From an uncultured Caulobacterales bacterium (GTDB lineage: Bacteria > Pseudomonadota > Alphaproteobacteria > Caulobacterales > Maricaulaceae), in assembly GCA_947503715.1 (NCBI GenBank), contig CANNER010000001.1, positions 372,001-436,000 on the forward strand: DNA of 64,000 nt. Reading direction: 5' to 3'. Position numbers and translations under genes: made by a program. Below are positions 40,844 to 64,000 of this stretch, piece by piece. Under the pieces are notes generated by a model. The model ran no database searches. It was not told the origin of the DNA and saw only the letters and a list, made by a program, of their open reading frames with translations. Numbering within the stretch: the first letter of the stretch is position 1; the number at the start of each line of letters is the position of its first letter.

Positions 40844-40851
40844 ACTGTCTC

Positions 40852-41616: not shown

Positions 41617-41624
41617 CTCACATC

Positions 41625-44143: not shown

Positions 44144-44210
44144 GATGTGTTCACTTCCCCTTCGCCTCAACCGTGTAGGTTAAAGCCAGGTGCGCCTCAA
44201 GAGTCTCACG

Positions 44211-45251: not shown

Positions 45252-45302
45252 CCGAATCATCCTCTTCTATCATCAGAAAATAAGGACCCGGCTATGGAAG
45301 TC

Positions 45303-48139: not shown

Positions 48140-50557
48140 CTATTTAACTTCGAGTGTCACGGTCTGCAAATTCTGCGAACTGTTTCCCACCATCACGTCA
48201 AACGCACCAGGCTCCACAACGCGGTTCATATTGATATCGTAGAAACGCAGTGCTTTTGGTCCGATGTCGAAACTCACAGTTTTTGTTTCGCCCGCCTCCA
48301 AGGACACACGTTCAAAGCCTTTCAACTCTTTGACAGGGCGCGTGACGGAAGAAATTTTATCGCGAATATACATCTGCACGATTTCATCTCCTGCGACATC
48401 ACCGGAATTTGTGACATCGATAGAAACGGTCGTTGTGCCATCGGTGCCAATTGTCGCGTTGGAGAGTGTCGGTTCTGACATTTCAAAACTTGTATAGCTC
48501 AACCCATGCCCGAACGCATAAAGCGGGGAGGCATCGCCAAAGGCGTAACCGCGGCGGGCTGTTGGCTTGTGATAATAGAAGGCCGGAATCTGCCCGACTG
48601 TGCGCGGGACCGAGACGGGCATTTTGCCCGACGGGTTCACTTTGCCGAAGAGAATATCCGCGACCGCCGTTCCCGTTTCCTGTCCCAAAATCCAGCCATA
48701 GAGAATGGCGTCGAGGTCTTCTTCGACATTGCTCAGGGCCAAGGGACGCCCCGAAATCACGACTCCGACCGTCGGGATGTCGAGCGCGCCAATCGCATCG
48801 ACGAGGTCTTTCTGTTGCCCGATGAGCGTGATCTCGTTCCGGTCACCGGGATGGGTTTCCGACCAGGCTTCGCGAGACGTCGACTCGTCGCCGCCAATCG
48901 CGAGAATGACGAGGTCGGCCCCTCTGGCGACAGACACAGCAATGCCGATATCGCGCATATTCTGTTCCGGGTCGATCAGGTTGACTTCATCATCCCACCA
49001 CGAGCGGTTATCGGTCAGTGTAACGCCCTGCGCATTGACCACATCAATCTCGTCGCCGACTTCGGCCTCAATTCCGTCAAGGATGGAGATGGTTTGTTTT
49101 GGTTCATCCGAATATCCGCCGAGAACTGTGATGGCCGCATTCGGACCAATCACGGCGATGCGCTTATATTTGGACCGGTCCAGTGGGAGAATGCCATCAT
49201 TTTTGAGGAGGACGGGCGCTTTCTGCGCGGCTTCCAGCGCAACGGCACGGGCTTCTGCGTTGCCTGTAATCTCCGTCGCATAATCCGCATCGGCATAAGG
49301 CGTCTCAAAAACCCGACCGCGTTCTTTCATCGTCAGCACACGGCCGACAGCTTGGTCCACATAATCGACGCTGTAATCGTCCGCCTCAATCCGCTCTTTC
49401 AACTCATAGAATGCCACACCATCAGGCAGTTCCATGTCGACGCCCGAGCGCAGGGATAGCGCCCCCGCATCGCCGATATTGTCGACAATCCCGTGACGGC
49501 CCTGCAATTCATTGATTGCAAAGTAATCGGCGACAACGGCGCCATCAAAGCCCCATTCATCGCGCAGGACATCGTTGAGCAGCCAGCTATTCGCATGGGA
49601 GGGCACGCCATCAATTTCGTTATAAGACGCCATAACAGAGGCGGCTTTGGCTTCTTGGACAGCGGCCTCGAATGGCGGGAAGAACACTTCGTATAGGGTG
49701 CGGTCCGACACATTGGCCGGGCCGACATTCATGCCGGCTTCGGGCTGTCCGTGACCCGTCATATGTTTGAGGGTCGTCAGGACTTTGTCATCCGCAATAG
49801 GGAAATCATCACCTTCGCCCAAACCTTGAAAGCCTTTCACGGCGGCGACGCCCATGCGGCTCACGAGATAGGGGTCTTCGCCAAAGGTTTCCTCGATCCG
49901 ACCCCAGCGCGGGTCCAGCGCGACATCAACAACGGGGGAGAGGACGTGATGCACACCGCGAGCGCGGATTTCGCGGGCGGTGATGGAATAAATCCGCTCG
50001 GCCAGTTCATCATCGAATGTCGCGGCGAGGGCGATGGATTGCGGGAAGCTTGTGGCTTCAAAGGCCTGATAGCCGTGCAGGCCTTCCTCGTGGAACAGCG
50101 TCGGAATGCCGAGACGAGTATTCTCAATATGCCATTTTTGAATATCATTGACGAGCGCCACGGTTCCCGCCGGATTACGACCCGTCATGGAGCGCACGAC
50201 GGTCGCGTCATTCACACCCTTGCGCTCAATCTCGCGCTCCATGCCCTGCGTGTCTTGTGGACGGGCGAAACAGCCAATGCCGTGCGGGTGAATCTTCTCC
50301 ATTTCCTCCGGTTGGAAATTGCCCTGATCGTCAAGAAAGTCGCCCTTTTTGAGCCAGACACAGGAGATTTGCGCGAGTTTCTCGTCCAGCGTCATTTCCG
50401 CGATCATATCTTCAACGCGGGGACTGAAAGTTTGACGTTTGAACGAGTCAGCGGTGGAGACCGGAGCGCTGTTGTCAGACGTCAATTGTGCTGCAGGCTG
50501 ACAGGCCGAAGCCGTGAGCAAGGCCAGCGCGGAAACGCAGAGGGTGAGCTTTTTCAT
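48140..50557 (-). CDS. Glycoside hydrolase family 3 (beta-xylosidase/beta-glucosidase) lipoprotein
   Basis: 805-residue exported enzyme. The signal MKKLTLCVSALALLTASAC ends at a Cys typical of a lipoprotein, so it is probably anchored in the outer membrane or periplasm. The N-terminal TIM-barrel domain has the GH3 pattern (DPRWGRIEETFGEDPYLVSRMG; nucleophile Asp in DGAVVADYFAI near residue 345). An alpha/beta sandwich domain follows, and a fibronectin-III-like C-terminal domain ends the protein. It heads the xylB-xylA operon, so a beta-xylosidase that releases xylose from xylo-oligosaccharides is the best guess; beta-glucosidase activity is possible. An operator lies upstream. Confidence 0.9.
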   Translation of the reverse strand: MKKLTLCVSALALLTASACQPAAQLTSDNSAPVSTADSFKRQTFSPRVEDMIAEMTLDEKLAQISCVWLKKGDFLDDQGNFQPEEMEKIHPHGIGCFARPQDTQGMEREIERKGVNDATVVRSMTGRNPAGTVALVNDIQKWHIENTRLGIPTLFHEEGLHGYQAFEATSFPQSIALAATFDDELAERIYSITAREIRARGVHHVLSPVVDVALDPRWGRIEETFGEDPYLVSRMGVAAVKGFQGLGEGDDFPIADDKVLTTLKHMTGHGQPEAGMNVGPANVSDRTLYEVFFPPFEAAVQEAKAASVMASYNEIDGVPSHANSWLLNDVLRDEWGFDGAVVADYFAINELQGRHGIVDNIGDAGALSLRSGVDMELPDGVAFYELKERIEADDYSVDYVDQAVGRVLTMKERGRVFETPYADADYATEITGNAEARAVALEAAQKAPVLLKNDGILPLDRSKYKRIAVIGPNAAITVLGGYSDEPKQTISILDGIEAEVGDEIDVVNAQGVTLTDNRSWWDDEVNLIDPEQNMRDIGIAVSVARGADLVILAIGGDESTSREAWSETHPGDRNEITLIGQQKDLVDAIGALDIPTVGVVISGRPLALSNVEEDLDAILYGWILGQETGTAVADILFGKVNPSGKMPVSVPRTVGQIPAFYYHKPTARRGYAFGDASPLYAFGHGLSYTSFEMSEPTLSNATIGTDGTTTVSIDVTNSGDVAGDEIVQMYIRDKISSVTRPVKELKGFERVSLEAGETKTVSFDIGPKALRFYDINMNRVVEPGAFDVMVGNSSQNLQTVTLEVK

Positions 50558-50625: not shown

Positions 50626-50639
50626 TGACAACGTTGTCA
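50626..50639. promoter_or_regulatory. LacI-family operator O1 (GH3 / lacI divergon)
   Basis: TGACAACGTTGTCA is a perfect palindrome with a central CG, the classic LacI-family form. It lies between GH3 (start 50557) and the regulator gene (50715), so it can act on both. An extra half-site, TTGTCA, is 5 bases to the left, giving a TTGTCA-AATTA-TGACAA arrangement. Confidence 0.85.
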
Positions 50640-50714
50640 AATTGAAAATAGGCTGCTAGTCATGGAGTGCAGAATCTCATAGAGAGACGCGAACTTGGCG
50701 TAGGAGGGGTGAGC

Positions 50715-51692
50715 ATGCCGACAATTATCGACGTTGCCCGCGAAGCCGGTGTCTCTTTCAAAACCGTGAGCCGTGTATTCAACGGCGAAGATACTGTGCG
50801 GCCTGTCACACGTGAAAAAGTGCGGGAAGCTGCGCGGCGCATTGGCTATTCGGTCAATCCTGCGGCACGGGCACTTCGCTCCAAAGCCTCTAGGAAGATT
50901 GGCTTGCTCCTGAATAACCCAAGCCTGTCCTACTCGGAGACTGTCCAGATCGGCGCATTGCTCGCGATGCAGTCAGAGGGCTATCAACTCGTCATGCTGG
51001 ACGGCTTGACCGCGTTCCATGCGGAAGAGGGGTTAGCGGGAGTAGTCGCTTGTCCACCGCTCGCGAATGATCCTGATATTCTGGACGCTCTGGGCGAGTC
51101 TCATTTGCCCTTCGTGCGCGTCGGGGCGGAACGTGTGAGTCAGATCGGCGACAAGGTGGGCATTGACGACCGCGCCGCTGCGCGGGAGATGACGGACTAT
51201 CTTATCAAACTTGGACACCGCCGGATTGGTTTTATTGAAGGTGCAGCGATTTATGATGTCTCCCGCCGCAGGCTCGCAGGATTTAATGATGCGATCCATA
51301 GAAGCTCCGGCGCGGTTCAATCCATCACAGCTTCTGGAGATTTCTCATATGCGTCCGGATTGCTGGCAGCGGAAGACCTCCTCTCTAAAGACAATAGGCC
51401 TACCGCCATTTTCGCCGCGAATGACGAGATGGCTTCGGCCTGCCTCGCGGCAGCCTATAAAATGAACCTGCGCGTGCCGGACGAACTCTCCGTCGTCGGG
51501 TTTGACGATTCGCCTGTCTCCCGCGCGGTCTATCCGGCTATTACGACCGTGCGGCAGGGCGTCCGCGATTTGCTCTCCGCTTCCGTCGATATTCTCTCGG
51601 GTCGAATGAGTGGCGATACGCGCCCTGCTCATGATATTATCCATGCGCATGAGGTCATTGTGAGAGATTCTGCGGGTCCGCCGCCGGAATAA
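50715..51692 (+). CDS. LacI family regulator of the xylan/xylose locus
   Basis: 325-residue transcription factor. The N-terminal helix-turn-helix is TIIDVAREAGVSFKTVSRVF with hinge helix NPAARALRSKASRKIG. A periplasmic-binding-protein-like sensor domain follows (FAANDEMASACLAAAYKMN and SVVGFDDSPVSRAVYP). ATG 50715 has AGGAGG eight bases upstream, a strong start; the upstream frame is not coding. It stands between the GH3 operon and the symporter, and the matching palindromes at four promoters suggest it is their repressor, responding to xylose or a xylo-oligosaccharide (inference; XylR-like). Confidence 0.92.
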   Translation: MPTIIDVAREAGVSFKTVSRVFNGEDTVRPVTREKVREAARRIGYSVNPAARALRSKASRKIGLLLNNPSLSYSETVQIGALLAMQSEGYQLVMLDGLTAFHAEEGLAGVVACPPLANDPDILDALGESHLPFVRVGAERVSQIGDKVGIDDRAAAREMTDYLIKLGHRRIGFIEGAAIYDVSRRRLAGFNDAIHRSSGAVQSITASGDFSYASGLLAAEDLLSKDNRPTAIFAANDEMASACLAAAYKMNLRVPDELSVVGFDDSPVSRAVYPAITTVRQGVRDLLSASVDILSGRMSGDTRPAHDIIHAHEVIVRDSAGPPPE

Positions 51693-51707: not shown

Positions 51708-51721
51708 TGACAACGCTGTCA
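51708..51721. promoter_or_regulatory. LacI-family operator O2 (symporter promoter)
   Basis: TGACAACGCTGTCA is a near-perfect palindrome 65 bases upstream of the symporter start. It overlaps a TTGACA -35-like hexamer, so binding would block RNA polymerase. Confidence 0.85.
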
Positions 51722-51785: not shown

Positions 51786-53216
51786 ATGGCCGACACACAA
51801 ACTGCCGATGGGGCAGCGACGAAAGTCAATTCGAGTTTTATCTTCCTAATCACGATTGTCGCTACGCTTGGTGGCTTCCTGTTCGGTTACGACTCAGGCG
51901 TCATCAACGGAACTGTTGATGGCCTGCAACAAGCGTTTGATTCAGATAGCGTTGGTACGGGTTTTTCTGTCTCCTCCATGCTTCTCGGTTCTGCAGTTGG
52001 CGCATTCACAGCAGGTTGGTTGGCTGACAAATTCGGTCGCCGAAATATGCTTATTGTCGCCGCGGTGCTGTTCATTATCTCAGCTTTCGGGTCAGGTATC
52101 GCAGGTGATCCGACGTCGTTCATCATCTACCGTATCATCGGTGGTCTAGCAGTGGGTGCGGCCTCCGTTATGGCTCCGGCTTACATTTCAGAGATTGCTC
52201 CTGCGGAAACGCGCGGGCGCCTGACATCCATTCAACAGGTTGCAATTATTGCGGGTCTGTTCCTGTCTTTCCTTTCCAACTACTTCCTCGCCAAAACGGC
52301 GGGCGGGTCGACGGCGGAATTCTGGGGCGGTTTCCAGACGTGGCGGTGGATGTTCTGGATGGAACTCATTCCGGCATTCTTGTTCCTTGGACTTTTGTTC
52401 TTCATTCCAAAGTCTCCACGCTTCTCTATGTTTAAAGATGACGAGGCCGGTGCAAAGGCAACTCTTCTGAAACTATTCGGTGACCCAAAAGCGTCCAACA
52501 AGGTCGAAGAAATCCGTGAGTCCCTCGCGAATGACCACAAGCCTGCTCTGAGCGATACGCTTGCTAAGGCTGGCGATAAGGGCTTCGTTTTCCGGACAAT
52601 CGTTTGGGTCGGGATTGGCCTTGCCATGTTCCAACAACTCGTCGGGATTAACGTGGTCTTCTATTACGGAGCGGTTCTTTGGCAGGCTGTTGGCTTTACG
52701 GAAAATGATGCGCTCCTTATCAACGTGTTGTCCGGTGGGCTGTCCATTGCGGCGGTGATGATCACGTTAATGACAATTGATCGCATTGGCCGGAAGCCCT
52801 TCCTCCTCTGGGGCTCCGTCGGTATGGCGATTACATTGGCGGTAGTTGCCTTTGCCTTCTCGAAAGGGACGCTCGTTGACGGAACACTTGTATTGCCCGG
52901 GAATATGGGCCTCGTCGCTCTAATCGCGGCGAATGCTTATGTTGTCTGTTTCAACATGAGTTGGGGTCCCGTCATGTGGGTTATGCTCGGCGAAATGTTC
53001 CCGAACCAGATCCGTGGCTCCGGCCTTGCAATTGCAGGTTTGGCGCAATGGCTAACCAACTTCGCCATCACATTCACATTCCCAATCTTTCTCGCAGGGA
53101 TTGGTCTTGCGGCGGCTTACAGCATCTATGCGGCCTTTGCCCTGATCTCTGTCTTCTTTGTCCTCTGGCTTGTCAAAGAGACAAAAGGGAAAGAACTCGA
53201 AGACATGGTCGGTTAA
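51786..53216 (+). CDS. MFS sugar/proton symporter (XylE-like)
   Basis: 476-residue 12-helix sugar porter (SP family) that imports a monosaccharide with a proton. The motifs are visible: helix-1 GYDSGVINGT, loop 2-3 GWLADKFGRRNML, the RIIGGLAVGAASVMAPAYIS segment with loop ETRGR, central loop PKSPRFSM, and loop 8-9 DRIGRKP. Operon context (xylose operon, LacI site O2) suggests D-xylose as the substrate; glucose or another pentose cannot be excluded. AAGGGGA is properly spaced before ATG 51786. The gene is followed by an intrinsic terminator hairpin that lies inside the start of the next gene. Confidence 0.93.
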   Translation: MADTQTADGAATKVNSSFIFLITIVATLGGFLFGYDSGVINGTVDGLQQAFDSDSVGTGFSVSSMLLGSAVGAFTAGWLADKFGRRNMLIVAAVLFIISAFGSGIAGDPTSFIIYRIIGGLAVGAASVMAPAYISEIAPAETRGRLTSIQQVAIIAGLFLSFLSNYFLAKTAGGSTAEFWGGFQTWRWMFWMELIPAFLFLGLLFFIPKSPRFSMFKDDEAGAKATLLKLFGDPKASNKVEEIRESLANDHKPALSDTLAKAGDKGFVFRTIVWVGIGLAMFQQLVGINVVFYYGAVLWQAVGFTENDALLINVLSGGLSIAAVMITLMTIDRIGRKPFLLWGSVGMAITLAVVAFAFSKGTLVDGTLVLPGNMGLVALIAANAYVVCFNMSWGPVMWVMLGEMFPNQIRGSGLAIAGLAQWLTNFAITFTFPIFLAGIGLAAAYSIYAAFALISVFFVLWLVKETKGKELEDMVG

Positions 53217-53221
53217 ACCCC

Positions 53222-54970
53222 GTGCGATGTTTAAACCTAATCAAGGCCAGCCTCATCGGGCTGGCCTTTTGCGTTTCGGGCTGTGGAAAGGTTTCTTTTG
53301 ATGACAGTGGGACCATAAATGTCCAATGGCTTGGTCGTCATGGACCTGTCGAGAAGAATGAACTCTATAAAAACGATAGCCTTACCTTAACCGTCGACGG
53401 AGAGAGATTAGTGGGGTGGCCCGGAAGCGGTGTCGCCTTCAGTTTTGAAGGAAATTACGCGACGATTGCTGTCACAGATGGTGGTGCGGGGTTAATGGAT
53501 CTTGTTGTGAATGGTGAACATAGCGTCATCAAACTGGAGCCAGGAAAAAACACTGTTCAAGTTGGTGATGGCACATTCGGAACGTATCATGCACGCCTAA
53601 CGAGGCGATCAGAATTCTATGATACTGGATATTTTGGGATTTCCAGCCCCACCCCAATTTCATTCGGAGGTGATGAAGGTAAGGGTTTTCTTTCGACAAA
53701 ATACTCTGAGCGAAAAATACTCTTTCTCGGCGACTCCATCACAGCGGGCTTCGGGGTCGGCGGATTTACTAAATCTTGCGGCAACACGCCCGCACTTCAT
53801 GCGCCATTGGAGAGTTATGCCATGCTCGCGGCAGACGGCCTAAATGCCGAGCCGCAATTGATCGCAATTTCGGGGCGAGGGGTGGTTCATAACTGGGACG
53901 CTAACCCCGCTCCCGTCATGCCTGCGCAACTCGATTTTGCCTTGCCCGACAGTCCCGATACATCTTGGGACCATGCGCAATTTATGCCGGATGTCATCGT
54001 GACACTGCTCGGCACAAATGATTGGTCCGTGATCGACCCGGGGCGGGATAAATTTCGCGCGGGTTACCGCGATATGCTCTCCGGTCTGCGGGAGCGCTTT
54101 CCCAATGCTCATATTGTGACGGTGTCCGGTCCGCTATTGGACGGAGAGCAGGGCGCGGCGATACGCGACGGTATTGACTGGGCGATGTCTGATTTGTCGG
54201 ATGAGAATATCTCGACACTGGACCTTAAACTCGCGGATTTCGGCTATGTCTGGAGCTGTAACAGCCATCCAGGGCAGACCTCCATGAAGGTCATGGCGAA
54301 TGATTTGATGCGTCATATTAAGACTGTGACGGAATGGGACTTCGAGCCAATTGAGACTCAAGTCTTAATAAACCCGCCAGATATTCTTCCCGTAGATGGA
54401 AAAATGCATTTCAACACACGCGTGGCGGAAATCGCCGATTTTCCGCAACAGGACGGCGGAACACTCCTCATCGGGGATAGTATTACAGAAGCTTGGCGCG
54501 ATACGCCTTTTCGGCAATCACTGCTGCCGCAGGACCTGAGTAATCATGGTGTGAGTTGGGACACGTCCAGCGGCGTTATCAGACGCCTTCCGCAAATCCT
54601 CACCAATGAACCTGACCGCGTCTTTCTAAAAATAGGGACGAATGACATCTCATTAGGTCGGACGGTTGAAGAGATTGCTCAAGATGTCAGCGCAGTGGTG
54701 CAGGCGATTAGGGACAGGCATCCCAAAACAGATATCTATTTGCAATCCGTTCTGCCGCGCGAAGCTGATAAGTTGGAACGAGTTGCGGCGGTCAATCAGA
54801 AATATGCTCAGATTGCTGCGGCAACAGGCGCGATATACATCGACCTGACGGATAGGTTTGCCGCACAGGATGGAACATTACGGCCTGATCTCACATATGA
54901 CGGCTTGCATTTGACCAATGAAGGCTACGCTGTTTGGGCTGAGGCGTTAAAACCCTATTTTAACCGCTAG
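53222..54970 (+). CDS. Two-domain SGNH esterase lipoprotein (CE2-like plus second GDSL domain)
   Basis: 582-residue lipoprotein. The signal VRCLNLIKASLIGLAFCVSGC has Cys-21 as the lipid site, starting at GTG 53222, five bases after the symporter stop. Residues about 30-140 form a CE2-type jelly-roll domain (GWPGSGVAFSFEGNYATIAV). The first SGNH catalytic domain (about 170-370) has LFLGDSITAGFG, LLGTNDW and CNSHPG, typical of CE2 acetylxylan esterases. The second (about 400-582) has LIGDSITEAW, KIGTNDIS and DGLHLTNEGY. A dual esterase fusion suggests removal of different acyl groups from xylan or xylo-oligosaccharides (inference). Confidence 0.85.
   Translation: MRCLNLIKASLIGLAFCVSGCGKVSFDDSGTINVQWLGRHGPVEKNELYKNDSLTLTVDGERLVGWPGSGVAFSFEGNYATIAVTDGGAGLMDLVVNGEHSVIKLEPGKNTVQVGDGTFGTYHARLTRRSEFYDTGYFGISSPTPISFGGDEGKGFLSTKYSERKILFLGDSITAGFGVGGFTKSCGNTPALHAPLESYAMLAADGLNAEPQLIAISGRGVVHNWDANPAPVMPAQLDFALPDSPDTSWDHAQFMPDVIVTLLGTNDWSVIDPGRDKFRAGYRDMLSGLRERFPNAHIVTVSGPLLDGEQGAAIRDGIDWAMSDLSDENISTLDLKLADFGYVWSCNSHPGQTSMKVMANDLMRHIKTVTEWDFEPIETQVLINPPDILPVDGKMHFNTRVAEIADFPQQDGGTLLIGDSITEAWRDTPFRQSLLPQDLSNHGVSWDTSSGVIRRLPQILTNEPDRVFLKIGTNDISLGRTVEEIAQDVSAVVQAIRDRHPKTDIYLQSVLPREADKLERVAAVNQKYAQIAAATGAIYIDLTDRFAAQDGTLRPDLTYDGLHLTNEGYAVWAEALKPYFNR
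53243..53270 (+). terminator. Terminator-like hairpin of the symporter gene inside the esterase signal-peptide codons
   Basis: AAGGCCAGCC-TCATCG-GGCTGGCCTT is a perfect 10-bp stem with a 6-base loop, followed by TT then GCG. It lies 27 bases past the symporter stop. The same bases encode residues 8-16 (KASLIGLAF) of the esterase signal peptide. The T-run is short, so termination is likely to be partial. Confidence 0.65.
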
Positions 54971-55175: not shown

Positions 55176-55793
55176 CTATTTCATGTAGGGTGATGCATCC
55201 GCGCCTTCACCCAAATTCATCACATAGAACTGTCCGAATTCAAGTGTCTGTTTGGCCTTTGCGAGGTTGAAGACGATTTGACTTTTTTCCGCAGAATAAT
55301 CACGGCTCGCAGTGCCGGAAATATGATGGAGTTTCCACTCTGTTCCCAGATCAAATCTTTTCTCAAGGATGGAGTCATAGGGTTCAACATTTCGCTGGAT
55401 CGCGACGAGAATATCGCCTGTCTCGCTACCCTTTGGCGGTTTCTCTGTTCTAGCCCAGAATGACATGAGGATAACATCACCTTTTTCGACGTTTTCAGTC
55501 ATCGGGATGCGTGTGGCTGTGTCCCAAGCGTTTCGCTTCGCCTTCTTGACTCTGACTTGATAAGCCATACCACCTGGCGCGCCTTCGGATTTGACAACAG
55601 CATCCTTTTTATCAGACCCATCCGTGCGCCATTGAATATCATAGGGGTTATTGATCAGTTTCCCCGGCAATTGTGCATCAAGGGCGACAAGAGCTTCTTG
55701 GATAGCGGCGTCGTCTTGCGCCATTGCAGAAGGTGTTGTCGCAATGGCGACAAAAGCTGCGCAGGACGTTGTGATAAAGGCGCGTTTAAACAT
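55176..55793 (-). CDS. Secreted carbohydrate-binding-like jelly-roll protein
   Basis: 205-residue secreted protein. Signal peptide MFKRAFITTSCAAFVAIATT, cleaved near SAMAQ at 25. The mature domain has the CBM4/22-like beta-sandwich pattern: AYQVRVKKAKRNAWDTATRI, then VILMSFWARTEKPP, then DLGTEWKLHHISGTA, then TLEFGQFYVMNLGEG. No catalytic domain is present. It has its own LacI-type operator (O3) about 47 bases upstream. It could bind xylan or xylo-oligosaccharides at the cell surface for the TonB receptor (inference). Confidence 0.7.
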   Translation of the reverse strand: MFKRAFITTSCAAFVAIATTPSAMAQDDAAIQEALVALDAQLPGKLINNPYDIQWRTDGSDKKDAVVKSEGAPGGMAYQVRVKKAKRNAWDTATRIPMTENVEKGDVILMSFWARTEKPPKGSETGDILVAIQRNVEPYDSILEKRFDLGTEWKLHHISGTASRDYSAEKSQIVFNLAKAKQTLEFGQFYVMNLGEGADASPYMK

Positions 55794-55884: not shown

Positions 55885-56577
55885 CTAATTCGGTTCTCCC
55901 AATAGGTTTGTGAGATAACTGACTTGCCCCTCAATCTCTTTCTTGGCTTCACATCTTCTACAGCGATTTGCGATTTTTGTCAGGGATTTGAACTGTTTCT
56001 TCGCTTCATCGACATTGCCGGCTTGATATTCAAGCAGGCTCAAACGAAAATGGGCGTCATAGAGTGTTCGCTTGATCTTCGTCGCGCGGGAGAAGGCTTT
56101 CTTAGCGTCCTCTGTTTTGCCGAGTTGCAACTGTGACATGCCCATCATGTAGATTTGGTAGCCGCGATCTGCGCAAGTCCGCTTTTTTGTATAATTCTCT
56201 TTTTCAAACCCTGATGTATTTACCGAAAAAGAGGGCGTAATCGCAGGCGTTGTTGAAACCGAAACATTTCCTCCCGCGCCGCCACTGGGTTGTGGCGCCG
56301 TGTTTATATCGCCCGCGACATCGGCCTGAATGGAACTGTCACGGGCAGCTTCCAGACCGGCTTCGAAATTGCGTTCTACACGGTGGGCGCAGACGGCGTT
56401 CTTCTCGAACTCAATTTCCGCTGTCTCAAAATCTCCGGCGAAAAAAGCGGCGAGGGCCGGGTCGACCCTTTTGGTAGCGTTCGCAACGACAGTGTCTTCT
56501 TCAGCTGCATCTTGCGCACCAGCAGGCGCAGATAAGATCAGAATTGATGTTACAAGAGCCTGGAACAAATATTTCAT
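55885..56577 (-). CDS. Secreted TPR-like protein of the halogenase operon
   Basis: 230-residue secreted protein with a signal peptide (MKYLFQALVTSILILSAPAG, cut after AGA near 21). The mature protein has TPR-type helix pairs: ALAAFFAGDFETAEIEFEKN near 42, YMMGMSQLQLGKTEDAKKAF near 145, and FRLSLLEYQAGNVDEAKKQF near 178. A Gly/Ser/Thr-rich low-complexity linker separates the first from the rest. Five Cys (VCAHR, TCADRG, NRCRRC) could pair. It is the last gene after the four flavoproteins, 56 bases from the nearest, so it is probably in the same transcript. The function is unknown; a periplasmic adaptor is possible. Confidence 0.65.
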   Translation of the reverse strand: MKYLFQALVTSILILSAPAGAQDAAEEDTVVANATKRVDPALAAFFAGDFETAEIEFEKNAVCAHRVERNFEAGLEAARDSSIQADVAGDINTAPQPSGGAGGNVSVSTTPAITPSFSVNTSGFEKENYTKKRTCADRGYQIYMMGMSQLQLGKTEDAKKAFSRATKIKRTLYDAHFRLSLLEYQAGNVDEAKKQFKSLTKIANRCRRCEAKKEIEGQVSYLTNLLGEPN

Positions 56578-56633
56578 AGGGTCACCGAGAAACTACGCAC
56601 ACGAACGTACATACAGGATATTTAGAAAATCAC

Positions 56634-58148
56634 CTAATTCATATCCGCTTTACAATTCGCATTGATGAAAGATTGATGCTTGGGCATCTTATCGAGGCAA
56701 GCCTGCGTAACCCGTTCTAACTGATCCATACGATCTAAAAGCGTCGCCTCTGGCAGAGAATTCGCCATAGGGTGGTAACGCTCAGGCATAATGCCTTGAC
56801 CATGCATGACTGCGAACCAGCTCGTTTCTCCGAAAATTTCATTGTCATGACGATAAAGGCGGGCGGTATCCTTATAAATCGCGATCCGCTCTTTCAGCGT
56901 GTCAGGGATGTCCATATTCTTACAATAGCGCCAGAACGGTGTGTCTTCGCGTTCTGTTGCATAATAATGCAGGATGAGGAAATCCCGGACTTGTAGATAT
57001 TCCTGACGGGTCTTTGTATTGAAATAATCAATATTGGACTGTGCGAAATCCTTATCCGGGAAACACTGCATCAGTCGGGCAACTGCCGTTTGGATCAGGT
57101 GAATAGAGGTCGATTCAAGCGGCTCCAAAAAGCCTGCAGCCAGTCCAAGGGAAATAACATTCTTATTCCAAGTCTTCTTTCGAATACCCGTCTTGAACCG
57201 CAAGAAGTTAGGGTCCGAGATCGGCTCTCCGTCTAGACCTGAATTTAGGCTCGCCAGTGCGTCGTCATCACTGATATATTCAGAGCAATAAACGTGGCCG
57301 TTGCCGATGCGAGATTGAAGTGGAATGCGCCATTGCCAGCCTGCGTCTTTGGCTGTGGCGCGTGTATAGGGGGCGGGCTCGCCAACGGACTCGCAGCCGC
57401 GTGCAACGGCGCGGTCACAGGGCAGCATGGCGCTCCAATCCTCATAGCCCGTCTTCAAGGTTTGCTCGATGAGGAGGCCGCGAAAGCCGGAGCAGTCGAT
57501 GAACAGATCACCTTCATAACTCTCGCCATTTTCGAGCGTTACAGACTCAATATGACCGGTTTCAGGATGTTGACCAGCTTTCGTAATTTTGCCCTCAATG
57601 CGTTTAACACCACGGCTTTCCGCAAACTCCCGCATAAATTTGGCGTAGAGCGAGGCATCGAATTGAAACGCATAGACAATTGAATTTAGAGGAGAGTTTT
57701 TGAGGCTCATATCCGGGCGCTGGAATTTCCCCTGTTGCGCGGCGAGGATTTGCAGGCAGTACTCATCAACAGAGGGCGCTTTGCCCAGCGCGTTATAGCG
57801 GTGCCAGAAATGGTGGAAGCGAAGCCCCTCCATATTCACACCGTAATCCCCAAACGGGTGAATGTAGCTCTCGCCCAGTTTTCCCCAATTTACGAATTCA
57901 ATGCCCAGTTTAAATGTCGCATTCGTTTTCTTGACGAAGTCGTTTTCATCCAAACCCAACAGACGATTGAAGTAATTAATATGGGGGATCGTCGCTTCGC
58001 CGACACCCACTGTGCCAATCGCCTCAGACTCAATCAGGCGGATATTCACCGTCTCGTCATTGATAAGCCGTGATAAGCCCGCCGCGACCATCCAGCCCGC
58101 AGTCCCGCCGCCGACAATGACGATATTTTTAATTTTCTGATCGGACAT
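56634..58148 (-). CDS. Tryptophan-halogenase-like flavoprotein (copy 4)
   Basis: 504-residue FAD-dependent halogenase family protein. The FAD-binding motif IVIVGGGTAGWMVAAGLS is at the start, followed by GVGEATIPHI. The catalytic lysine is in TFKLGIEFVNWG near residue 84. The halogenase motif WxWxIP is WQWRIP near 273. A C-terminal substrate domain (FLEPLESTSIHLI) is intact. It therefore looks active; with no flavin reductase in the window, FADH2 must come from elsewhere. Relatives near TonB receptors brominate indole-type compounds in vitro, but their in vivo substrate is unknown. One base before copy 3's stop. Confidence 0.88.
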   Translation of the reverse strand: MSDQKIKNIVIVGGGTAGWMVAAGLSRLINDETVNIRLIESEAIGTVGVGEATIPHINYFNRLLGLDENDFVKKTNATFKLGIEFVNWGKLGESYIHPFGDYGVNMEGLRFHHFWHRYNALGKAPSVDEYCLQILAAQQGKFQRPDMSLKNSPLNSIVYAFQFDASLYAKFMREFAESRGVKRIEGKITKAGQHPETGHIESVTLENGESYEGDLFIDCSGFRGLLIEQTLKTGYEDWSAMLPCDRAVARGCESVGEPAPYTRATAKDAGWQWRIPLQSRIGNGHVYCSEYISDDDALASLNSGLDGEPISDPNFLRFKTGIRKKTWNKNVISLGLAAGFLEPLESTSIHLIQTAVARLMQCFPDKDFAQSNIDYFNTKTRQEYLQVRDFLILHYYATEREDTPFWRYCKNMDIPDTLKERIAIYKDTARLYRHDNEIFGETSWFAVMHGQGIMPERYHPMANSLPEATLLDRMDQLERVTQACLDKMPKHQSFINANCKADMN

Positions 58149-59663
58149 TTAAACCGCCGCGCCATAGCGTTGGAGGAATTCTTCGTGAGTCGGCATATTT
58201 TGCGCGACTTGCTGCATAGCTCCGCTCATGGATTTTAAGCTGTGATCGACTTGCGCTTTTGGCAGTGACGAGACGATGGGGTCTGTGACGTCCGGAATAA
58301 TATTCTGGCCAAGAAAGACTGCGATCCAGCTTTCTTTGGAAAAGAGTTCGTCATCATAGCGGAAGATCCGTCCGGCCTTGTCAAATAAGTCCATTTTGCT
58401 TTTAAGACTTTCCGGGATGTCCATCGTCCGGCAATAATTCCAGAACGGACTGTCGTCACGCTCTGTCGCGACATAATGCAGGATAATGAAATCCCGAACC
58501 TGATGAAACTCTTTACGCATTTGCTTGTTATACTCGGTCCGAACGACGTCAGAGACGTCCGCGCTGGGGAATAGGCTGATAAAGCGACTAATTCCCTGTT
58601 GGATGAGGAAGAGGGAGGTCGATTCCAACGGTTCCAGGAATCCTGCTGAGAGACCCAGCGCGATACAGTTCTTATTCCATAACGTTTCACGACAGCCTGT
58701 TTTAAACGAAATCTTGCGAGGCTCGCTCAGAGGCTGGCTATCCAGCCCTGCCATCAGGATGTCTTTGGCTTCCGCATCATCCATGAATTTACTGGAATAA
58801 ATATGCCCGTTCCCCGTGCGGTGTTGGGTCGGAATACGCCATTGCCAGCCCGCCGTTTTCGCCGTCGCTTTTGTGTAAGGAATAAGGCTGCCAACCCGCT
58901 CTGTCGCGACCGTTTGCGCACTGTCACAGGGTAGCCAATGGCTCCAGTCTTCAAAAGGAACATCCAGTATTTTTTCCGTTAGAAGAGATCGAAAGCCCGT
59001 GCAGTCAAAGAAAAAATCGCCCGTGATTGTTTGGCCATTTTCCAATGTCAGTGTTGTGATATCGCCGGTCTCATTTTGCTGATCGACCCGTGTCACCTTG
59101 CCTTCAACGCGTGTCACGCCCCGCTTTTCCGCATAATTGCGTAAATATCTCGCGTAAGCTGTTGCATCGATGTGATAGGCGTAGCGGAGGTGAGACAGGG
59201 GCGATCTGGGGTTCGGGTCGGGCAGGGTGAACTTTCCGTTTTCCGCTGCAACGGCGCACATGCTGTAATTCTGCAGCGGTGCGGAATTGCCGGAGGACCG
59301 ATTATGCAGCCAATAATGATGGAAATCGATACCCTGCATATCCACGCCGATACTGCCGAACGGATGTATATAGCTGTCGCCTAATTTTCCCCAATCCTTG
59401 AACTCAATACCGAGTTTAAATGTGCCATTCGTCGCTTTCAGGAATTCCGCTTCATTAATGCCCAACATGCGATTGAAATTGATCATGTCAGGAATCGTGG
59501 CCTCGCCCACACCGACTGTGCCGATTTGGTCGGATTCGATTAGAGTAATTCGTGTCACATCGGGGGAGAGCAGACTCGAAAGGGCTGCCGCCGCCATCCA
59601 ACCTGCAGACCCGCCGCCGAGAATGACGATATGTTTGAGAGGCGCATGTTGTGTATCAGACAT
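58149..59663 (-). CDS. Tryptophan-halogenase-like flavoprotein (copy 3)
   Basis: 504-residue paralogue of copy 4 with the same length. FAD motif HIVILGGGSAGWMAAAALS; the catalytic lysine in TFKLGIEFKDWG near residue 84; WQWRIP near 277; and FLEPLESTSLFLI. All catalytic features are kept. It starts inside the end of copy 2 (8-base overlap) and abuts copy 4 without a gap, so the four genes are translated from one mRNA. Divergence from its neighbours suggests an old duplication and separate substrates. Confidence 0.88.
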   Translation of the reverse strand: MSDTQHAPLKHIVILGGGSAGWMAAAALSSLLSPDVTRITLIESDQIGTVGVGEATIPDMINFNRMLGINEAEFLKATNGTFKLGIEFKDWGKLGDSYIHPFGSIGVDMQGIDFHHYWLHNRSSGNSAPLQNYSMCAVAAENGKFTLPDPNPRSPLSHLRYAYHIDATAYARYLRNYAEKRGVTRVEGKVTRVDQQNETGDITTLTLENGQTITGDFFFDCTGFRSLLTEKILDVPFEDWSHWLPCDSAQTVATERVGSLIPYTKATAKTAGWQWRIPTQHRTGNGHIYSSKFMDDAEAKDILMAGLDSQPLSEPRKISFKTGCRETLWNKNCIALGLSAGFLEPLESTSLFLIQQGISRFISLFPSADVSDVVRTEYNKQMRKEFHQVRDFIILHYVATERDDSPFWNYCRTMDIPESLKSKMDLFDKAGRIFRYDDELFSKESWIAVFLGQNIIPDVTDPIVSSLPKAQVDHSLKSMSGAMQQVAQNMPTHEEFLQRYGAAV

Positions 59664-61134
59664 TTTGGTCTTCCAAATATTTTATCAGGCGGGACATATA
59701 GACATCATGAGGGGGTAATTTTTTTGCCATCACATCAATCGCATGGCGCATTTGTTCAAGTTTCTGCGTCAGTCCGGGCAGGGACACGCGGTCGGCCAGC
59801 GGATCATAACGTCTCGGCAAACGTCCCATGCCTATATGGAGCAGGGTCCAGTCTTCGCGGCTGAAAGGCTCATAATCATATTGCACCAGCACACCGCGGC
59901 TTTCGAATTGCTCGACCTTGTCCTGCAAGCGTTTCGTAAGCGGGGTTGAACTTGCAGCGACCCAGTAGGGATGAGCACCTGTTTTCGATGTGCTGAAAAA
60001 CGCGCGTTGGAATAGATCCGCGTGGCTATAATCATCATTGAAACGTCGGTTATATTCGCGACGCTCAACCGTCATATTTTTTGAGACAGGGATGAGTTCG
60101 ATAAGCCTATCAATATCACGTTCGAGCAACCGCATTGGTGCAGAGGTGAGGGGTTCAAGGCTGGCCGCCCCATGACCGAATGTCAGACAATTCCCGATCC
60201 AGGGCGTCTCTGTTCGACCTAATTGCACTTTAAAAGGTGTATGATCAGGTGTGCCATGAGCTTTCAATGCCGCACGCTCTGAGTTTGGATCATAAACCGT
60301 CAATCGATGAACCTGATTTTGAAGTGTCGTTTCCGACTGCCAGCCATAATCGGCTGCCCTTACAGTCCGGTAGGGGTGTCGCTTGCCCGTTTCAATGTTA
60401 TGCGTTTCGGCCGCGCAGATTTCCCGTGTTCCAACCCAGGATGTGTCGCTTGGCGATTTCAATTTCGAGTTTGGGCCTGACGCATCAATAAAGAAATCTG
60501 CCTTAATGATCTGCGCATTATTCAGGGTTAGGCCCGTCACTGTCTCACCGCTGCGCTCAACTTTCGTCACGTCGGATTGAAGGCGGGTCACCCGTTTCGA
60601 TGACAGCTTGCCTGAGAAATACCCTTGCCAGTCTTTGGGTGAAAACTGATATCCATAATCCATATCTGCAAGCGGCGTTTTTCGGTCTTCCGGGGGGTGC
60701 GCAAACCCGCCGGACTTGGCCGCTTGGGTTGATATTACATAGTCTTCGAGAGAGGCTTTTTCCGGCGTGGTTTGGCGAAATCGTGTCAGGTAATGCTGAA
60801 ATTCTACACCATTCAGAACAGGCAGAGGTTTGTAAAAACTCTGTATCCAATTTTGACGTGTGGGCCCCCAATTCTCAAATTTCGTCCCCAATGAGACACC
60901 TGTTTGCGTGTTCAGAAAGAGGTCCGGTTCGGTGAACGCTTTGTCTAAGAGAAAGTCGTAAGTTGTGGGCGAGGTGAGGGTCCCGAAGAAAATATCCGTG
61001 GCTTTGGCAGCATCGGTTTCGATCAGGATAAGTTGAATGTCCCCGGGCAATGTCCGGTCTAAGGCACAGGCACAGACATAGCCTGCCAACCCGCCGCCAT
61101 AGATGACGATAGTTGTGAGGGGCGCCGACGCCAT
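59656..61134 (-). CDS. Degenerate tryptophan-halogenase-like flavoprotein (copy 2)
   Basis: 492-residue family member that has lost the active site. The FAD motif is altered to IVIYGGGLAGYVCACAL. The catalytic Lys position is Ser (TGVSLGTKFENWG instead of TFKLGIEF). The WxWxIP motif is WQSETT, and the LEPLEST segment is LEPLTSA. The frame is intact with no stop or shift, so the protein is made and presumably has a non-halogenating job, such as a partner or FAD-binding scaffold (inference). ATG 61134 (MASAPLTTIVIYGG) was chosen. It lies 4 bases after copy 1 and overlaps copy 3. Confidence 0.82.
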   Translation of the reverse strand: MASAPLTTIVIYGGGLAGYVCACALDRTLPGDIQLILIETDAAKATDIFFGTLTSPTTYDFLLDKAFTEPDLFLNTQTGVSLGTKFENWGPTRQNWIQSFYKPLPVLNGVEFQHYLTRFRQTTPEKASLEDYVISTQAAKSGGFAHPPEDRKTPLADMDYGYQFSPKDWQGYFSGKLSSKRVTRLQSDVTKVERSGETVTGLTLNNAQIIKADFFIDASGPNSKLKSPSDTSWVGTREICAAETHNIETGKRHPYRTVRAADYGWQSETTLQNQVHRLTVYDPNSERAALKAHGTPDHTPFKVQLGRTETPWIGNCLTFGHGAASLEPLTSAPMRLLERDIDRLIELIPVSKNMTVERREYNRRFNDDYSHADLFQRAFFSTSKTGAHPYWVAASSTPLTKRLQDKVEQFESRGVLVQYDYEPFSREDWTLLHIGMGRLPRRYDPLADRVSLPGLTQKLEQMRHAIDVMAKKLPPHDVYMSRLIKYLEDQNV

Positions 61135-61138
61135 GGCC

Positions 61139-62650
61139 CTAGCCCGCTCCCATCTCTGCCGCGGCGCCATATTGCGCGAGGAAGGCCGCGTGGTCGGGTG
61201 TTTGCGTAACCGCAATTTTACTCTGCTGTTTGATTGTGTCGGTTACTGAGATAACCTCGTCCAGTGTTTTGCGATTAACCCGCAGATCATATCCATCGGG
61301 AATGAGGTTCTGTCCCGCCATCACCGCGACCCAGCTCGGTGGCAGGAAGACGCCCTGTTCATAGCGGAGGAGGTACCCGCGGCTTTTCCAAGCCTCCATT
61401 TTTTCCTGCAAACTCTCCGGTAGCGTCATGTTGCGGAAATATCGCCACATCTCACTGTCATCGCGCTGCGTGGCGACATAATGTAGGAGGAGGAAATCCC
61501 GCACGCGGTCAAAGTTTAGGTCCATGCGGCGGTTATACTCCTCCGCGTCTGACGTTTCGAACGACTTTCCGGGAAATAATTCAATCAGGGCCGTTATGCC
61601 CTCTTGGATGAGGTGAATAGACGTTGATTCTAAGGGCTCTAGAAACCCACCGGACAATCCAATCGCGACAACATTCTTATTCCAAAGCTTCCGTCTTTTG
61701 CCCGTTTTAAAGTAAAGCTGTTTGGGCTCTGAGAGGGGCTGGCCTTCTAACGTGCTCAATAATTGCTCTCTGGCCGCGTCATCTGAAATAAACTCGCTGC
61801 AATAGACGTGTCCATTACCAACGCGGTGTTGGAGGGGAATGCGCCATTGCCAGCCAGCCTTTCGGGCTGTTGCTCGTGTAAACGGCACGCTGGGCCCTTT
61901 GGTTTCGCAAGCGACGGCGATGGCCCGGTTACAGGGGAGCCATTCGCTCCAATCGTCATAGCCTGTTTCCAGCTCTTGTTCGATCAGGACGCCCCGAAAG
62001 CCGGAGCAATCAACAAAGAGATCGGCTTCAATCGTCTGTCCGCTTTCCAAAGTAATGGAACTTATGAAGCCACTTTCAGGGTCGCGTGACGCTTTGACGG
62101 CTTTCCCTTCCGTACGCGTGACGCCGTTTTTCTCAGAATATTGGCGAAGCAACACCGCATAGCGGCTGGAGTCAAATTGATAGGCATATCCGAAATTAGA
62201 GCCGATTTTACTGACATCCTTGCCTGGAAGTTGGAACTTCCCGGCTTCTGCGGCGAGAATCGGATAGGAGTAATCATCCAGTCTGGAATTGTGTCCATTC
62301 TGCAACAGTCGCAGCCAAAAATGATGGAAGTCCACACCGTCAATTGGCTCGCCATAATCACCGAACGGGTGGATATAACGATCACCCTGACGGCCCCAAT
62401 CGCAAAACTCGATCCCTAATTTGAAAGTTGCGCGGGTCGCTTTCATAAATTCCCGCTCATCGATTCCGAGGCTTTGATTGAAAAAACGAATATGCGGCAG
62501 GGTGGCCTCGCCGACGCCCACAGTGCCGATTTGCTCTGACTCCACCAACTCTATCTCTATACCCAAGCTTTTGTATTTATTGGATAATCCGGCAGCTGTC
62601 ATCCAGCCGCTCGTCCCGCCGCCGAGTATGCATATTTTTCGAAGTCTCAT
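61139..62650 (-). CDS. Tryptophan-halogenase-like flavoprotein (copy 1)
   Basis: 503-residue first gene of the flavoprotein operon. ICILGGGTSGWMTAAGL binds FAD; the catalytic lysine is in TFKLGIEFCDWG near residue 80; WQWRIP is near 270; and FLEPLESTSIHLI follows. It therefore appears catalytically intact. ATG 62650 with AGGGGAA just upstream is preferred over an ATG six codons further. Upstream on the same strand is operator O4, with TTGACA and, 18 bases on, TAACAT as a -35/-10-like pair. The operon order is copy 1, 2, 3, 4, then the TPR-like gene. Confidence 0.88.
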   Translation of the reverse strand: MRLRKICILGGGTSGWMTAAGLSNKYKSLGIEIELVESEQIGTVGVGEATLPHIRFFNQSLGIDEREFMKATRATFKLGIEFCDWGRQGDRYIHPFGDYGEPIDGVDFHHFWLRLLQNGHNSRLDDYSYPILAAEAGKFQLPGKDVSKIGSNFGYAYQFDSSRYAVLLRQYSEKNGVTRTEGKAVKASRDPESGFISSITLESGQTIEADLFVDCSGFRGVLIEQELETGYDDWSEWLPCNRAIAVACETKGPSVPFTRATARKAGWQWRIPLQHRVGNGHVYCSEFISDDAAREQLLSTLEGQPLSEPKQLYFKTGKRRKLWNKNVVAIGLSGGFLEPLESTSIHLIQEGITALIELFPGKSFETSDAEEYNRRMDLNFDRVRDFLLLHYVATQRDDSEMWRYFRNMTLPESLQEKMEAWKSRGYLLRYEQGVFLPPSWVAVMAGQNLIPDGYDLRVNRKTLDEVISVTDTIKQQSKIAVTQTPDHAAFLAQYGAAAEMGAG

Positions 62651-62817
62651 AAATTCCCCTGAACTCATGCAAAATCATGTGTGTCATATGCTATGTCGAG
62701 ACAAGGCTTCTCTCCATCCTGCGACGTTTAGTGCGGCCTAGGCTTTCGAACATTGTGATTGGGAGGAGCTCAGAAAAACCTGTACTGATAAAAACGTTAT
62801 ATGAATGTTAGATCGTG

Positions 62818-62835
62818 TTTGACAGCGCTGTCAAA
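62818..62835. promoter_or_regulatory. LacI-family operator O4 (halogenase operon / TonB receptor divergon)
   Basis: TTTGACAGCGCTGTCAAA is a perfect 18-base palindrome. Each arm supplies a TTGACA -35 hexamer: rightward followed after 18 bases by TATGAC (receptor), leftward after 18 bases by TAACAT (halogenases). One operator therefore covers both divergent promoters in the 272-base gap. Confidence 0.85.
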
Positions 62836-62922: not shown

Positions 62923-64000
62923 GTGAAATCACACTCGAGCACAGCTGTAGATCGGCTTAGCAAATTATCACTGTTGGGAACGACAGCATTGATTGCCAGT
63001 TTTGGCTTTGCGCCAATGGCCTTTGCGCAGGACAATACAACATCTGTTGATGACGAAGATGTCGTCGTTTCAACCGGTATTCGTCAGTCTCTCAAGGAGG
63101 CTCGTGATCTGAAGCGCGATGCAGATACGGCTGTTGACTCGATCACGGCATCTGATGTCGGTGCTCTACCGGATCTTTCTGTCGCTGAAGCTCTGTCTCG
63201 CATCCCGGGTGTTGTGGCCCAGCGTTTTGATATCAACAATGATAATGGAGGGGATTTTCCGTCCCCCGAAGGTGGGGGTAACCTGATTCGTGGTCTGACA
63301 TTGGTGAGAACCGAGTTTAATGGTCGAGATGCTTTCTCCGCAAATGGAGGGCGCGCGCTTGATTTTGGCACAATTCCGCCTGAACTTATCGGTGCTGTTG
63401 ATGTTTTCAAAAACACCACGGCGGACATGATTGAAGGTGGTATTGGCGGTACAATCAATCTTCGCACGCTTGAGCCATTTGATCGTCAAGGGTTGGTTGC
63501 TGTCGCATCAATTGATGGCACTTATACAGACCTCAGAAAAGAATGGAGCCCAGATTTCAGTGCTGTCCTCGGCAACCGTTGGGACACAAGTGCGGGCGAG
63601 TTTGGCCTCCTGGGTTCGTTCTCATCCTCAGAGCTTCAATCTGAGTTGCACGGTTTTCAAATCGGTCAGGTCATTCCTTTCAATACAGGCGACCAGATAA
63701 TCGCCTTGCCCAATGGTTTTCAATTGCGGACCAATGAGGTCGACCGTGAGCGTGAAAGTTACTATATAGCCGGTCAGTGGCAGGACCCGTCGGGTGATCT
63801 CAGGTTGACGGCAAAATATTCCCGTATCGACAACGAGACAGAAGGGAATGAGCGAACACTTGAATTCTTTGGGGATGGTGAGAGCTTCGGAGCATACAGT
63901 GTTGATGGCCTCACGACGACGCCATTTTCTTCATCGGGTATTGCGCAATGCAATGGGTCCAACGATCCTTCCCCTACAAACCCGACTTGCGAAATTACTG
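62923..64000 (+). CDS. TonB-dependent outer-membrane receptor (partial, 3' end beyond window)
   Basis: Reading frame open from GTG 62923 to the window end (359 codons), so the C-terminal barrel is missing. The signal peptide ends near FAPMAFAQ at residue 36. A TonB-box-like VVVSTGIRQSL is followed by the plug domain (ALPDLSVAEALSRIPGVV, LIRGLTLVRTEFNGRDAF and the closing GGIGGTINLRT near 185). The beta-barrel then begins. The plug form is that of the Caulobacter/Xanthomonas group of carbohydrate receptors. GGGGAT lies about 10 bases before the start. It is divergent from the halogenase operon and under O4. A xylo-oligosaccharide is the likely ligand (inference from context). Confidence 0.9.
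   Translation, partial: MKSHSSTAVDRLSKLSLLGTTALIASFGFAPMAFAQDNTTSVDDEDVVVSTGIRQSLKEARDLKRDADTAVDSITASDVGALPDLSVAEALSRIPGVVAQRFDINNDNGGDFPSPEGGGNLIRGLTLVRTEFNGRDAFSANGGRALDFGTIPPELIGAVDVFKNTTADMIEGGIGGTINLRTLEPFDRQGLVAVASIDGTYTDLRKEWSPDFSAVLGNRWDTSAGEFGLLGSFSSSELQSELHGFQIGQVIPFNTGDQIIALPNGFQLRTNEVDRERESYYIAGQWQDPSGDLRLTAKYSRIDNETEGNERTLEFFGDGESFGAYSVDGLTTTPFSSSGIAQCNGSNDPSPTNPTCEIT

Follow-up and report, generated by a model that had tools for sequence, protein, structure and literature searches.

The flavin-dependent halogenases PrnA, RebH, PyrH and Thal act on free tryptophan, in antibiotic pathways; for enzymes of the BrvH/Xcc type the natural substrate is, to our knowledge, not known. Excerpts of the published work describe BrvH and Xcc4156 as having an open substrate site with an exposed Lys (PMC5945002, PMC7336383), and report, in the case of BrvH, that free tryptophan is not a substrate, that indole is brominated weakly, with an activity so described as low and the authors doubting that indole is the natural substrate, and that a second halogenase gene lies upstream (PMC5945002). 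Excerpts of the same kind add that one and the same dimer recurs in crystals of tryptophan halogenases (PMC7336383), that the lanthipeptide Trp halogenase MibH belongs with BrvH to a group C (PMC8269204), and that the flavoenzyme QhpG dihydroxylates peptidyl Trp (PMC7876137). Here we analyse four adjacent genes of the halogenase family, the quartet, in a window of 64,000 nucleotides, the whole stretch of DNA under study, from an uncultured marine Caulobacterales bacterium (contig CANNER010000001.1). Three of them encode predicted halogenases, the second encodes a conserved pseudo-halogenase, and the four form a fixed module tied to a family of TonB-dependent receptors. A preliminary description of the window had made the underlying observation, which is confirmed and extended; its interpretation is partly supported.

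The open-licence literature, judged by paper listings, yielded no description of such a quartet, of its pseudo-halogenase or of such a linkage to TonB, a term with 0 matches in the main text of the BrvH and Xcc4156 papers (PMC5945002, PMC7336383).

The quartet and its second gene

The letters A, B, C and D follow the transcription order of the four genes, all of which match the Pfam family PF04820 (Trp_halogenase):

61139..62650, minus strand: gene A, flavin-dependent halogenase of the BrvH/Xcc type with its catalytic residues intact (PF04820, 618 bits); an ATG upstream, at 62668, is also a possible start
59656..61134, minus strand: gene B, conserved pseudo-halogenase lacking the catalytic Lys, the Glu and WxWxIP (PF04820, 220 bits)
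58149..59663, minus strand: gene C, halogenase, catalytic residues intact (PF04820, 623 bits)
56634..58148, minus strand: gene D, halogenase, catalytic residues intact (PF04820, 647 bits)
62923..64000 and past the window end, plus strand: TonB-dependent receptor of the TonB-Xanth-Caul subfamily, Plug and barrel domains (TIGR01782, 580 bits)

All four proteins exceed the Pfam gathering cut-off of 21 bits; these are whole-protein scores and belong to the listed open reading frames (ORFs), which for A and B start slightly further upstream. The genes stand back to back, as had been described: a 4-base gap separates A from B, B and C overlap by 8 bases, ATGTCTGA, and the junction of C and D is a 0-base gap (TAAATG), the ATG of D coming immediately after the stop of C. 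Open frames near 1000 amino acids in some genomes, considered as A-B fusions, turned out to be two separate genes lying in frame with one stop between them, and no natural fusion was seen among the loci inspected.

An active flavin-dependent halogenase can be recognised by its catalytic Lys, the Glu of the EPLEST motif, GxGxxG and WxWxIP; we take the first two to be Lys79 and Glu346 of PrnA. Proteins A, C and D have all four, and are thereby predicted to be active. Among aligned orthologs with a letter at the position, Lys and Glu are present respectively in 52/52 and 53/53 sequences of A, in 53/53 and 52/52 of C, and in 49/49 and 48/48 of D, and GxGxxG in every one; WxWxIP is kept throughout, one C sequence having a single X. 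That three members keep Lys and WxWxIP had been seen in the preliminary description, as had the fourth member without the Lys; what escaped it is that this member is a conserved pseudoenzyme, always in second position. Across 55 orthologs of B (the window, L030 and 53 named loci), neither catalytic residue occurs once: the Lys is replaced by Ser in 46, Cys in 6, Ala in 2 and Thr in 1, and the Glu by Thr in 48 and Ser in 7. WxWxIP is gone and GxGxxG partly eroded.

The fold, on the other hand, is predicted to have been kept. An AlphaFold2 model of B has a predicted local distance difference test score (pLDDT) of 94.3 and a predicted template-modelling score (pTM) of 0.92, and superposes on 9luq, a tryptophan halogenase of Pseudoalteromonas sp. 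L11, and on 6frl (BrvH) with template-modelling scores of 0.87-0.88; the E346D structure of PrnA was also among the comparisons. The best match of B in the Protein Data Bank (PDB) is again 9luq, with 148 bits. By its residues and its predicted structure, B is a halogenase-fold pseudoenzyme that has lost its catalytic residues.

Could B be a decaying pseudogene, and the quartet four loosely related paralogs? B does evolve 2-3 times faster than A, C and D, and some of the distant genes in the second position, discussed below, are short (301-387 amino acids). Yet B is one open frame in the 53 named loci, two of which are truncated at contig ends, and 29 columns are invariant over 52 sequences. 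In six close pairs, its ratio of nonsynonymous to synonymous substitution rates is 0.17-0.34, where A, C and D have about 0.02-0.19. With a confident predicted fold and a fixed position besides, the pseudogene explanation is scarcely credible: these substitution patterns are those of a gene under purifying selection, and B is by its signs a functional protein.

The order of the genes is as constant as their residues. A profile search for B in a genome collection gave at least 53 named loci, a lower bound since two peptide patterns were used. Their hosts are Alphaproteobacteria (Maricaulales/Hyphomonadaceae-type, Caulobacterales with Asticcacaulis, Sphingomonadales, Parvularcula) and Gammaproteobacteria (Paraglaciecola, Alteromonas, Colwellia, Glaciecola and one metagenome-assembled genome of Lysobacteraceae). 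A precedes B in 52 of the 53, the exception, L072, being cut by a contig start, and C follows B in 51, L085 being cut and L076 having D in the place of C. The complete order A-B-C-D is found in 43 loci; the other ten are L041, L044, L071 and L078, where D is absent from the stretch examined, L049 and L056, where it lies on the far side of the receptor, L068, which is cut, and the aforementioned L072, L076 and L085. The receptor is present in 49 loci, and the other four (L038, L068, L072, L079) are cut on its side. Conservation across dozens of genomes excludes a chance grouping, and the recurrence of A-B-C(-D) in both classes shows that the quartet is not a recent duplication.

The degenerate second gene reaches beyond the clade of the window. 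Nineteen further quartets (L109-L127), chosen from high-scoring paralogs of A, C or D, have a degenerate PF04820 gene in second position in 19 cases out of 19. A survey of 60 genomes of the order found PF04820 matches in 40, over the cut-off in 37; the 139 rows clustered give 53 clusters of one row, 25 of two rows, and nine runs of at least three genes on one strand, and in all nine runs the second gene is degenerate, amounting in G015 to a 301-amino-acid ORF with an 18-bit trace. In the alignment of 22 distant position-2 proteins (the 19 quartets with L128, L129 and L138; poor for L110, L114, L115, L118 and L128), the Lys is found in 7 and the Glu in 2, never together; over the window clade and the distant loci, 0 of 77 position-2 proteins have both. 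Both residues are kept at positions 1, 3 and 4 of the distant loci and L108 (22/22, 21/21 and 22/22), and in the paired (12/12) and single (2/2) halogenases checked: the loss of catalysis thus belongs to position 2. Elsewhere, the survey turned up a standalone ORF of 419 amino acids in G017 (L130:8397-9656), with a very weak PF04820 trace of 45 bits, or 15 bits with the general model; no other halogenase was detected near it within a 19 kb stretch.

A tree was built on about a quarter of the window-clade loci and 14 of the 19 further quartets, with 9 of their second genes. The position-1 genes group (26/27, support 0.97), as do those of position 2 (24/24, support 1.0, long-branch attraction being possible) and of position 4 (28/28 with one single gene inside, support 0.82). 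Since the genes of positions 1 and 4 each group, the quartet probably arose once, as far as these sequences tell. The check proposed in the preliminary description, structure prediction with phylogeny, has thus given a confident fold for B and groups for positions 1, 2 and 4; position 3 did not resolve (18/28).

Across 200 genomes of the order, A and B are found together. B, searched with one query sequence and E up to 1e-60, occurs in 14 genomes, and orthologs of A (over 900 bits, the next best having 776) occur in the same 14; C is found in these 14 and in G148, D in 13 of them (not in G124) and in G148. The receptor, taken at over 1500 bits (the next best score is 829), has the same distribution as C. 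The bit thresholds were chosen after seeing the score gaps, and at most 7 candidates per genome were scored, at most 3 for the receptor. In G148, the receptor-C-D locus (L108) has neither A nor B. The place in this genome that is syntenic with the window (L138) holds a lone pair A'-B', diverged from the window's A and B and flanked on one side by GH3, LacI and zwf-type genes; on the other are homologs of the esterase, the transporter, LacI, beta-xylosidase and xylB. This split suggests two units, A-B and receptor-C-D. The covariation of evolutionary distances over the 39 loci with all five genes agrees with it: the distances that best track the receptor's are those of D (partial r 0.51) and C (0.43). 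In the A'-B' pair, which stands without C and D, B' (L138:9431-10804) has kept the Lys and has Met in place of the Glu, and could by its residues represent a stage on the way to losing catalysis.

The receptor and the sugar genes

The quartet and the receptor are divergently transcribed, with 272 bases between them. The receptor, 1067 amino acids long in L007, scores 580 bits against a curated TIGR01782 cut-off of 310, and is thus a member of TonB-Xanth-Caul. In 21 genomes, selected for the presence of PF04820, 88 of the 113 PF04820 genes have a TIGR01782 receptor at 5 kb or less, and 51 of the 110 such receptors over the cut-off have a PF04820 gene that close. The genome of the window has six PF04820 genes, the quartet and one convergent pair. 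This second pair (L008:11854-14878, in contig C2 of G000), whose ends overlap, adjoins a TIGR01782 receptor, GH97, alpha-amylases and an esterase.

The other features of the neighbourhood are these:

62820..62833: perfect palindrome TGACAGCGCTGTCA, a predicted LacI-type operator, between A and the receptor gene
55885..56577, minus strand: secreted TPR protein, after D (TPR_2, 34.7 bits; TPR_6, 31.9 bits)
55176..55793, minus strand: secreted CBM_4_9 carbohydrate-binding protein (PF02018, 31.9 bits)
52961-54970: esterase ORF, its single chain combining an N-terminal CE2 domain with two SGNH/GDSL stretches
50667-51692: LacI gene of the xylose side
48140-50557: GH3 enzyme
46689-48137: xylB, over its NCBIfam cut-off
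45376-46692: xylA, over its NCBIfam cut-off

The TPR protein, placed after the quartet in the preliminary description as well, has an N-terminus that by eye resembles a signal peptide; its homolog comes immediately after D in several relatives (for instance L037, L040, L045 and L047), and in several a CBM_4_9 homolog follows. The xylose side also holds an XylE-like transporter, and the TTG start listed for the esterase falls inside the transporter gene, the true start being probably further downstream. On the other side, after the receptor, come genes for a GH3/ExoP_C enzyme and a LacI regulator, and genes of the zwf, pgl, edd and glk types. The stretch 40124-45260, adjoining the xylose genes, holds genes of phosphate uptake: PhoU, PstB and PstC are over their NCBIfam cut-offs, and a permease and a PBP-like protein stand in the places of PstA and PstS.

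The operator pattern has 6 matches in the window against 1.07 expected. The 14-mer of the gap recurs identically before the zwf-type gene (L007:8028); the palindromes of the xylose side, TGACAACGTTGTCA (50626-50639) and TGACAACGCTGTCA (51708-51721), are respectively two and one bases off it. These two flank the LacI gene of that side, and are likely to serve its own xylose regulon. Of 37 relatives with the divergent arrangement, 18 have a LacI-type palindrome inside the gap that separates A from the receptor gene, or at most 400 bases away, against about 2 expected from a background of 0.08 per kb. Quartet and receptor are thus probably induced together by a sugar. In the window, induction with the glucose/beta-glucan side is more likely than with xylose, judging by the operator; cross-talk with the xylose side is possible, since its sites differ by just one or two bases.

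The tie to carbohydrate uptake that had been proposed is thus strongly supported, by the receptor counts and by the operator in the gap. The phrase "sugar-import operon" calls for a qualification: there are sugar genes on both sides, and the quartet diverges from the receptor. The suggested role on aromatic or lignin-linked compounds released with xylan is not supported. That the quartet would process lignin-linked or feruloyl compounds freed with xylan draws on the xylose genes and the acetylxylan-esterase-type gene adjoining it, and on xylA/xylB homologs near it in several relatives. Against this, the operator of the quartet is that of the glucose side, several relatives have a GH3/ExoP_C homolog with no xylose-gene homolog in the stretch examined, GH31, GH95 and GH1 are found among the neighbours, and the enzymes look cytosolic; nor does a xylan-specific role fit their relatives, which also adjoin a receptor with GH97 and amylase genes. 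A scan of neighbours (78 of 105 candidate proteins, 20 B loci), restricted to the 25 most frequent of 78 Pfam families, gave GH3 10 times, ExoP_C and LacI 6 times each, FGGY kinases 3 times, GH31 twice, and GH95 and GH1 once each, which is compatible with xylan, beta-glucan or xyloglucan. Overall, the lignin-linked role is very unlikely. The scan also gave two Cupin_8 (JmjC-like) proteins, a second kind of possible protein oxygenase near the receptors.

The nature of the substrate

By eye, the N-termini of the four halogenase-family proteins have no evident signal peptide, so these proteins should act in the cytosol. The window holds no flavin reductase, as had been noted: PF01613, the family tested, occurs once in the genome, on contig C4.

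The closest PDB matches of A are 9luq (485 bits), 6frl (BrvH, 482 bits) and 6y1w (Xcc4156, 429 bits), and its Trp1/Trp2 letters resemble those of group C as given in excerpts of PMC8269204. A first possibility is that the three enzymes with intact residues halogenate indoles or phenols in free form, whether signals, antibiotics, or plant and algal aromatics entering with the polysaccharide, B being an adaptor or a diverged enzyme with another chemistry. The bromination of indole, and not of free Trp, by BrvH speaks for it, and the Lys kept in 7 of the 22 distant position-2 proteins would allow some B-type proteins to retain a chemistry. However, the published activity on indole is the low one whose natural role its authors doubt, and the 25 commonest neighbour families are mostly sugar-related (GH3, LacI, FGGY kinases). 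Such a route is possible, if less probable than the scheme proposed below.

The open site of BrvH and Xcc4156, the inactivity of BrvH on free Trp and the examples of MibH and QhpG lead us to favour, by analogy, a large aromatic substrate, possibly peptidyl Trp, which suits enzymes of the open-pocket BrvH class more than a phenolic bound to xylan would. It is then tempting to look at the receptor itself, the constant neighbour of the quartet: the module might modify Trp residues of the TonB receptor, or of another exported polypeptide, before export, with B as docking subunit. MibH shares its group with BrvH, and the proteins A, C and D have weak matches to the NCBIfam model of QhpG (31-36 bits against a cut-off of 240, which makes them non-members; no match is listed for B). 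The Trp content of the receptors rises with the number of linked halogenases, being 9.8, 11.7, 12.8 and 17.4 per 1000 residues for 0, 1, 2 and 4 of them (n = 40, 14, 11 and 47), and Tyr content does not. Four columns, W378, W515, W539 and W546, are Trp in 89-100% of both quartet-linked sets and in 0-7% of unlinked receptors; W546 is present in 47/47 of the quartet-linked receptors, in 16/25 of the others with a linked halogenase and in 2/40 of those with none.

These figures call for caution. Phe also differs between the linkage groups. The group specificity of the Trp columns exceeds that of other residues (p 0.014) but not that of Phe, Tyr and His (p 0.41), and the Trp residues may have no role beyond binding sugar. 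On the receptor tree, receptors linked to a quartet cluster with one another, and in a tree-based test with 6 independent pairs only, no Trp column is significant and most hardly differ, W546 going in the same direction in 1.6 of the 6 pairs on average and never in the opposite one. Confounded by ancestry, with so few independent pairs, the Trp signature is a lead and not yet evidence for protein modification. Distance covariation likewise leaves B unsupported as a receptor-recognition subunit, its partial r with the receptor being -0.31 once A, C and D are accounted for. Modification of the receptor or of another exported polypeptide is, all told, rather unlikely. Its most specific version, a dedicated machine of three halogenases and a dead docking subunit that modifies, in the cytosol, on sugar induction and before export, Trp of the TonB sugar receptor or of a co-exported partner, is unlikely.

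A proposed scheme and its comparison with known systems

We give a probability of about 0.5 to the following scheme as a whole, a flavin-halogenase module that is induced by a sugar, is coupled to the receptor and includes a non-catalytic partner subunit. The four genes would be one ancient functional module tied to the TonB-dependent sugar receptor, a LacI-family regulator co-repressing both. A, C and D would be cytosolic halogenases of the open-pocket BrvH/Xcc type, dependent on FADH2 and O2, with reduced flavin borrowed from a general reductase. B would be a non-catalytic subunit, most likely a partner of A that replaces the usual homodimer of the family, and would bind or position the substrate, or tune the activity. 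The module would halogenate, or perhaps only oxidise, an aromatic group of a substrate that the classical tryptophan pocket could not accommodate; this substrate would be produced in the presence of the sugar and be connected with the function of the receptor.

Several observations weigh against this scheme. Not every part is obligatory, since D is absent in four loci with room for it and C in one. Besides their negative correlation with the receptor's, the distances of B have partial r of 0.27, 0.36 and 0.38 with those of A, C and D, so that A is not tracked more than the others. An AlphaFold2 run on the A-stop-B read-through gave a pLDDT of 70.5 and a pTM of 0.62, with an alignment of only 10 rows containing both genes, and speaks neither for nor against an A-B contact. 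A may form homodimers, with a separate role for B; and since B adjoins C equally, by the 8-base overlap, it could be a partner of C.

If the receptor-modifying machine were true, it would supply the missing natural substrate of the BrvH-type halogenases, and a receptor or peptide substrate would mean a new kind of bacterial protein modification. The fixed set with a dead member may explain the weak side activities of single purified enzymes. TonB-linked PF04820 enzymes are, in any case, frequent in the present sample: 37 of the 60 surveyed genomes have a PF04820 match over the cut-off.

Among known systems, PrnA, RebH, PyrH and Thal share with A, C and D the fold and the catalytic residues, which B lacks, and are more distant from A, at 282 bits or less. 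QhpG and MibH, as excerpts present them (PMC7876137, PMC8269204), offer a precedent for polypeptide substrates in the flavoenzyme class, and belong to pathways other than the quartet's. The characterised enzymes nearest to A are BrvH and Xcc4156, also of PF04820, with Lys, Glu and WxWxIP in common; in the alignment, A resembles both in lacking an insertion present in PyrH, putatively that of the Trp pocket, whose binding loop (Trp3/Trp4 motifs) would mark a halogenase of free Trp. Unlike theirs, the present system has four genes in a fixed order, one of them a conserved pseudoenzyme, next to a TonB receptor.

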